From positions 15,711,025 to 15,775,024 of the forward strand of contig NC_060108.1 in NCBI RefSeq assembly GCF_021155765.1: a DNA stretch of 64,000 bases, in the 5' to 3' direction. The notes below the pieces were generated by a model that saw only the letters and a program-made list of their open reading frames with translations, did no database searches and was not told the DNA's origin. Origin of the DNA: Diprion similis (lineage: Eukaryota > Arthropoda > Insecta > Hymenoptera > Diprionidae). The position numbers and the translations under genes are program-made. Below, in pieces: positions 29,101 through 32,100 of this stretch (positions within the stretch are counted from its first letter, which is position 1; every line of letters begins with the position of its first letter).

Positions 29101-32100
29101 AGTGCAGGAGATGAGAAAATCGGCGAAAACGGAGATTCCGAAAAAGGATTAAAGTCGAGGAGAGGAAAAGCCGGAGTCGCTGCGGTTTCGCCGCGGCTGG
29201 TGCAGGTGCTTTTTTTATCTTACCCTACCTCCGTGCCCCTATGATTCTAACTCTGAGGCCTCGACTCCCCGGTGATATCTTCGCCCGGTGCACCCACGTG
29301 CACGGCATAGTAAACACCGGGCGAGATGCAGTCGAGAAAGAGTAAGAGAGAGAGAAAAAGAAAGAGAAAGAGAAAGAGAGCGAGAGAGGAGGGAGAGGAG
29401 AGAGAAACTTGGAATTGGGCGAGTAGTACACGGGCGAGAGATGGTGGGACGAGGACTTGAGAGAGGAAGAGATGAAGAGAGGAAAGAGAGAGGAGCAGAC
29501 TCGGCTAATGGTAGCGCGCTCAAGAAGTAAGAACAGTGTACCGCGAGCTACGCGACTCGAAGCACCAGACGCCGCGCCATCGGAATCAACCTATCGCCGA
29601 TGCTGCAGGTGTCTCGACGTCGGTGGTTCCTCCAGGTTGCAAATTTTTGAAGACGAACCAAATCAGAGAAACGGAGCGAGCTACACATGCCCCTGGTACC
29701 AACCATTGGGTTAAGTACCGCAGGGTGTTCGGGTTCAAATCGCGAGTTCGACGTCGGGGACCTTCGAGGTTCGAAGGGATCCCTTATTATGGGGTAGTCA
29801 TGACGGAAGGAATCAAGCTGCTGCGGTCCCAGGGCGGCGTTGCCCTGGTCATAGTCTCGGTGCTTATGGTGGTATCAGGGGGACCTGGAGGATGCGGGGA
29901 AGCGGGAAGTAGCGGTGCGACGAAAGTGTTTTCCAAAGATTTTGAGTGGACCCTTGTGCCCGGTTTGAGCGAGCGCGATAGCCGAGGGAGTGTCGTCGAT
30001 AAGGGCGATGAGAAAGCCCGGATTCCTCTCGGGGTTGAGGGACCGATTTTCCCACGGGACCGTCCACGCAACCTACGGAAACGCGCTGCGAATATTCCGC
30101 CCGAGTTTCACCGCAGGAGAAAATACCAGAGGAGGAATCGCGGGCCCCGAATTCAGGGTTTCTACCCCGGGAGGAAACCCGTCGCCTACGTTCACATACA
30201 ACCCTCCTCTCCCAGGGTTGCTTTCACCAGGAAATGCCACCGATGCATGGTTTACTACAAACCTTGTCCCCCCGTCAACCAACCCGTCAGGGTCTGGCCT
30301 ACCAACAAGTATGGAAGACCTCAGGCCAACTGGTACGGGCTTAAATACGGTGAGTTTGTTAACGGAGAACCGTGTCAGACGCCGGAAGGATGAGCTTTCG
30401 AGAGCTTTGCGCTCTCCCAAGGCGCCTACGTCGAGTCAGGATCGCGTCCTGTGCCTCGATCTCTATCCTTGCATCGTGCACCACATTGATGCACCGGCGC
30501 TTGTCAACGGAACAGACAGCAGAGACAGGAGAAGCTAATCCTCCGCGTCTGTCTCTCCGCAGCTAGTCCTACTCGCTAATCTGACAGCGGATCGTAAATC
30601 AGTCCATGAAAATCTTTCGGCTCGATATCAGAGTGGACGATGTCGTCTATCGTACGCGTTTATCTGTGCTATGGCTTGTTTTCGGTGTTAGGACTGATCG
30701 GTACTAGGTAGGTACCGTAAGCTCCACCAAATACAAATTGAAGGACTAATTCTATCCACCGTATTGGTTCTAATTCGTTTGAAACATTTTCCTTTCGCTC
30801 GAGGTCTAAGATTTGTGATACTGCTCGCGCAGTTGAAAAGAAAACAATCCCTCACGTCTGGTCCAATGTAACTGCATCAGTAAAGTGGCTAGAAATGATA
30901 ACCCATTTGCCGCAAATTATTCGAGCCCAATGAAAAAGGAAAACTGATCGCGATATGTCGCGAAGTTATCAGGCGATGGCTATCACGGCGGAATCTCGTC
31001 ACAAGCTGTCATCTCGCTTACGCCAACACTCTTCTCGTCTTCGTTTACTTTACTCGCATCCGTATAGCATGTGTGACTGCGATTAGCCGTCAACGCCCAT
31101 TCCGATGAATCGGGATGCTCCCCAGAGTCACTAAATTTTAAGTCATTGAACTTGGAGAAGAGCGATAAGTGCGATGGATCAATTAGCGCAGAACATGACG
31201 GTCGATTCTTTAGACAGTTTCAGTGCTGTTAATTTACCGAAAGATTTAACGATCGAGATCTTCGGTGCAACGAGCTGCGGTAAATTCAGGACGACGAGAG
31301 GAACCTTTGACTCGATCTGATCGACTGTTTCAATAGCTTTCGAACACCCTCGAGTGTCTTTCTTCCAGCGGGATGCGACGCTGGGTGAAATGAGACGTCA
31401 ACGTATCTTTTACGCAAGTCGTTTTAACCGTGTGTCACCTATGAATAATCCTTGATTACAATAAGCTGCATAAATGAGTTGAAAATTTGTCAACCATACA
31501 TCAATTCGAGTTGAACTCATTTACGGACAATAGACTTATATATCCAATTTCTGTTATAATTAATTACAGCAAACTACTCGAAAGTCAAAGAATAGCTACA
31601 TGTAGGAAGAAGAACCATATAGCCTCATAAACTTATATTTTATAGCCGTTGAATTAATGGATCGAGTATCGACACGCGATAATTTAAAAGACATTTTTCC
31701 GATCGTTCCGGTTAATTATTACCGTCCCGAATCGCATGGAGCGAGAGATTCGCCGCAATTCCTTTAACAAATAATAAAAATGATCGTCTGTCAGAAGTCC
31801 TGGTATATATATAGTGCCGTGGCCACTTGGGAAGAGAAAATAAAGTTGTTCACCTGGAGAGCCGTGATCGGATCGTTTCGCCTCGCGTCGCGTCTCGCCT
31901 GCACAAGTGGTGGACCGTTTTAAATCGTATTAATTGAATCCGATCTCCGTACCAAATGGCATCAAGCTCGGATCCGTCCCGCAGAGAACTGCCTTTCAAT
32001 AGAAAAAAAAAGAATTATTCATCAAACGAACGATAACTCAATCGTCGATATATACACTCTCATCGAAAAACAAGTGAATAGAAATCCAATTAACAATGAG

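Follow-up and report, generated by a model that had tools for sequence, protein, structure and literature searches.

A 25.3-kb intron of a laminin alpha gene in the hymenopteran Diprion similis holds a plus-strand exon (29800..30349) that, judged by comparison with its relatives, is a real, conserved protein-coding exon and more than a chance open frame. We regard it as fairly probable that this exon supplies most of the coding sequence of a distinct gene, nested in the laminin intron on the same strand, for which a short candidate exon at 30563 is the preferred terminal exon. All coordinates refer to the window, the whole 64,000-nucleotide stretch analyzed (contig NC_060108.1, positions 15,711,025 to 15,775,024 of the forward strand).

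The host gene lies on the plus strand of the window. Its LN domain is at ~8 kb and its domain IV at 15.7 kb, LE modules follow near 18 kb and 44 kb, and LG modules are found at 52–54 kb. The intron (18715-44000) splits the LE modules and is phase 1 at both ends. The last LE exons before it (18138..18714, plus strand) close on a phase-1 donor after 18714 (CTGG|GTAAGT), and the next laminin exon (44001..44107, plus strand) has a phase-1 acceptor and opens TTTCAG|GATGTCGC. Read in phase 1, exon 44001 gives GCRCN, and its two remaining frames give DVAVT and MSL-stop; the exon begins an LE module whose eight cysteines run over into the following exon. The automatic exon chain that begins at 44001 and reaches a stop codon at 54185 comprises 1,642 residues, with part of the coiled coil apparently missed. 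A comparison with Rfam gave no match between 18700 and 44010. The same intron also contains an alpha-glucosidase (GH13) gene on the minus strand, with outer limits placed by eye at ~39698-41906. Two pieces of it (40440-40976 and 41001-41558) match the Pfam Alpha-amylase family (E 1e-13 and 3e-55), and its best solved chains carry the depositors' names Binary toxin receptor protein, Sucrose hydrolase, and Salivary alpha-glucosidase. Nested genes are thus at home in this intron. Downstream of laminin lies a UTP23-like rRNA-processing gene, with an exon at 60647-61072 (plus strand) that carries an Fcf1 end and a UTP23 sensor motif.

The open frame extends on the plus strand from an ATG at 29800 to a stop codon ending at 30393, a total of 197 codons. 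The last base of the exon is 30349 (TACG|GTGAGT), and its 550 nt correspond to 183 codons plus one base, or phase 1; the GTGAGT donor occupies 30350..30355 and, when read through, codes E after a terminal YG. A leader of 28 residues, hydrophobic as judged by eye, is followed by a variable basic middle and a conserved core (residues 129-184, 30184..30349). The core reads AYVHIQP...KCxRCM..YKPC...W.GLKYG, has three invariant cysteines, and ends at the donor. These features bear out the leader-bearing frame with a phase-1 donor that an earlier note on this DNA had described. No Pfam domain was detected in the exon at E values up to 1. In the species' own 269-Mb genome, the exon is single-copy and without a paralogue (next best match, E 8), and the downstream DNA at 30340-31900 is likewise present once. 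The exon neighborhood is covered by a GC-rich stretch at 29.0–30.5 kb. Just upstream of the exon, GC content is raised and a GA-rich tract of GAGAGA repeats spans 29330-29500, which could be promoter or 5′ UTR. Two simple patterns, for TATA and Inr, gave no match on the plus strand at 28801-29800. Beyond the stop of the frame, the first AATAAA on the plus strand is at 31773..31778 and another at 31839, so the earlier statement that none appears for over 1.3 kb was right.

Relatives were sought with two protein searches of differing scope. The 197-residue window query, with proteins of about 108–345 residues accepted (a length rule of 0.55–1.75), returned one relative, P0001 (E 2e-10). A profile query combining P0001 (residues 1-223) with the window exon, for which proteins of about 123–390 residues were accepted, returned 12 proteins including P0001, with E values of 2e-16 to 2e-127; the best belonged to P0001, which was itself within the query. 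Two members are from Vespidae, namely P0003 (Vespa mandarinia LOC118447982) and P0004 (Odynerus spinipes KPH14_004715). The core, from AxVHIxP to W.GLxYG, is present in all 12 relatives, spanning 53–64 residues with exactly three cysteines, and the window exon conforms to the full pattern AxVHIxP..KCxRCM...KxC..Y..W.GLxYG. Identity between the 56-residue window core and those of the relatives is 44–60%, and 18 alignment columns are invariant across all 13 sequences. Given relatives in other sequence sets at this level of identity, the frame is beyond chance, and the exon has been kept in wasps and apparently in other Hymenoptera too. Searches of viral and prokaryote genome collections turned up no relative. 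When the 13 members were compared with Pfam, five families were matched, each in one member only (best, RD3 at E 0.007), and the search for a solved-structure relative gave only two weak matches (best E 0.047).

Outside the core, the relatives share an overall layout. A hydrophobic leader was recognized by eye in 10 of the 12, the exceptions, on the sequences as supplied, being P0007 and P0009, the latter starting without a Met. In P0001–P0004, P0006, and P0010, the first ~16 residues (MYPGRSxWARGVLALGA) are conserved to a degree that is unusual in signal peptides. This N-terminus is looser in P0005, P0008, P0011, and P0012, and the window leader has diverged from it. Between the kept N-terminus and the core, very roughly 60–280 residues vary freely among relatives. 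A furin-type R-x-[KR]-R site lies no more than 45 residues ahead of the core in 10 of the 13 sequences, the exceptions being P0001, P0002, and the window. Since the window has other basic runs, we did not treat the site as defining.

The residue following the invariant YG is informative about the donor. When read through, G|GTGAG or G|GTAAG codes E or K, and 11 of the 12 relatives have one of these residues: E in 10, as in the window, and K in P0011, with T in P0003 as the exception. Four proteins (P0009, P0010, P0011, and P0012) end a single residue after YG and are hence uninformative on the tail. The tails of the other seven read-through relatives have in common only what GTGAGT(T/C) fixes, which is one or two codons; only P0001 and P0002 are slightly alike beyond that point. 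Taken together, the E or K after YG and the differing tails indicate that the phase-1 donor is conserved, as read from this residue, the donor DNA itself being seen in the window alone. The frame's own stop at 30393 very probably lies in an intron. The conservation of exon and donor that the earlier note had proposed looking for was therefore found, and the contrary pattern it had named, a frame conserved through the stop at 30393, was not. We reject the reading of the frame as a complete single-exon gene with its stop at 30393, as the read-through tails are not conserved past the donor-fixed codons.

What the exon is joined to is best approached through P0003, a separate NCBI protein of 367 residues that ends KYG|TSR. 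In P0006, which resembles it (310 of 379 aligned columns identical), YG is followed by EFAST. Set against P0006, P0003 looks spliced onto another exon, as far as annotation can tell, and its TSR end fits no frame of exon 44001. A protein in its own right with an apparently spliced, non-laminin end argues for a nested gene. Splicing to a non-laminin exon was also what the earlier note had said would speak against its own proposal; the end of P0003 agrees with that outcome, at the level of a protein sequence annotated in another species. Alternatively, this end may reflect a changed donor that is read through or a gene model completed without reads. The spliced look appears in only one of the 12 relatives, with Odynerus P0004 reading through the donor, and more named proteins might be expected if annotation found such a gene easily.

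In the window, a candidate terminal coding exon for the nested gene is at 30563..30579 (plus strand). Its CCGCAG acceptor is 213 nt past the donor, behind a CTAAT branch-like site and a pyrimidine run. The join codes (G)CT AGT CCT ACT CGC TAA, or ASPTR-stop, a short end resembling the TSR of P0003. The resemblance is tiny, and a 3–6 residue end in [ST]R arises at four of the 688 AGs between 30361 and 44010, 30563 among them, by a pattern chosen after both ends had been seen. These 688 AGs were scored as candidate acceptors with two matrices. A generic matrix placed 44001 first (5.55) and 30563 second (5.51), with 30563 the nearest among its 25 best. The second was trained on 18 acceptors of the automatic laminin chain, with 44001 (under test) and the doubtful 48113 and 48481 dropped. 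It again placed 44001 first (6.55) but 30563 only 64th (0.09), which counts against the preferred terminal exon; the training acceptors, left out one at a time, scored from -1.5 to 6.5, three of them below 30563. An exon-chaining script confined to the intron is likewise unfavorable, as it led from the exon to 31369, 35940, 39776, and 41031 and never picked 30563. Given that the script does not properly penalize long introns or terminal exons, it was not used to choose an acceptor.

For the product of such a nested gene, we infer a secreted precursor, in which a leader and a fast-changing propeptide would precede a conserved part of ~55–80 residues with three cysteines. In most relatives, cleavage would take place at the furin-type site before this conserved part. 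Phase-1 splicing would append a short terminal exon of a few residues, most likely that at 30563, and the transcript would end near the AATAAA at 31773 or 31839. The mature product may act as an extracellular peptide, and the odd number of cysteines suggests a disulfide-linked dimer.

The reading proposed in the earlier note, which we consider unlikely, is that an internal promoter drives a short laminin alpha isoform, spliced from 30349 to 44001, to give an LN-less chain like vertebrate LAMA3A. The note put this chain at about 2398 residues, compared with the 1,642 of the automatic exon chain from 44001, which seems to be incomplete in the coiled coil. Exon 44001 does accept phase 1, as claimed, and the joined codon G|GA is Gly, the same codon as is formed from the upstream exon ending at 18714; one in three random joins would agree in phase as well. 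The join would land exactly where an LE module with all eight cysteines starts, but the exon would bring an odd number of cysteines beside a module that is already complete. Both matrices rank 44001 as the strongest of the 688 acceptors, although it is a true laminin acceptor regardless. Conservation of the core up to the last codon of the exon, as though the protein went on, is consistent with a fusion. Left free to run to 56000, the chaining script also finished in laminin, by way of the same implausible small exons. Opposed to this are the TSR end of the sole spliced-looking relative, the presence of a nearer acceptor, and promoter signs that are limited to the GC-rich, GA-rich stretch. The absence of fused models among the relatives is no evidence either way, because the protein searches accepted lengths below those of laminin-fused chains. 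Of the proposed isoform, the genuine leader exon and the conserved phase-1 donor have stood, whereas the junction to laminin found no support. We see only a small chance that an internal first exon of laminin alpha1/2 arose independently in Hymenoptera, producing an LN-less chain with a lineage-specific three-cysteine cap, perhaps alongside a small secreted peptide.

More doubtful is a nested gene that bypasses 30563 for other or further downstream exons (e.g., at acceptors near 31.4, 32.9, 33.7, and 37.1 kb). By the window-trained matrix, 63 AGs outscore 30563, 44001 included, and 31369 was picked by the chaining script. However, ten plus-strand frames at 30539-39994 gave nothing above the curated Pfam cut-off (one had weak matches, best E 0.03). 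Introns in the downstream half of the automatic laminin chain measure 75–553 nt in 19 of 20 cases, which favors a near acceptor, yet the host intron spans 25.3 kb. Least probable of all is dual use of the first exon, yielding a short secreted peptide with the near terminal exon or, when that exon is skipped, an LN-less laminin alpha; 30563 and 44001 are both phase-1 compatible, but more assumptions are needed than for either simple model.

Known systems offer partial parallels. In LAMA3A, a signal-peptide exon resides inside the laminin alpha gene, upstream of the LE modules, and the product has no LN domain. The window exon is alike in being a leader exon within a laminin alpha gene, 5′ of the LE modules; LAMA3A is an established isoform, whereas the junction of the window exon to laminin is only a candidate, and the exon carries a conserved core of its own. 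Wing blister, the Drosophila laminin alpha1/2, is a laminin alpha with LN, LE, domain IV, LE, and LG modules. It shares its LN, LE, domain IV, and LG make-up with the window gene, and we know of no nested exon of this kind in it. The hydrophobic leader, variable middle, core, and three core cysteines of the window exon recur in V. mandarinia LOC118447982. There, the part before the core is ~170 residues longer and holds an RRKR site, with none at the corresponding place in the window. In the annotation, LOC118447982 is a protein of its own to which no function is assigned, and it ends in TSR, where the window offers the candidate end ASPTR.

According to one published account, alternative promoters in LAMA3 give rise to a short alpha3A and a longer alpha3B (PMC8388930). 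A literature search retrieved no paper combining laminin, nested gene(s), intron, and Hymenoptera or insect, and two core peptides and LOC118447982 were not mentioned in the literature searched. Among titles and the opening parts of abstracts, nothing was found on such an isoform or gene.

The analysis points to a conserved secreted-protein exon in at least two wasp species and ten further sequences, which in the window is nested in a basement-membrane gene. Whether insects make a short laminin alpha thereby comes down to one junction. If the fusion were true, insects could make a laminin alpha without the LN polymerization domain, in parallel to LAMA3A.
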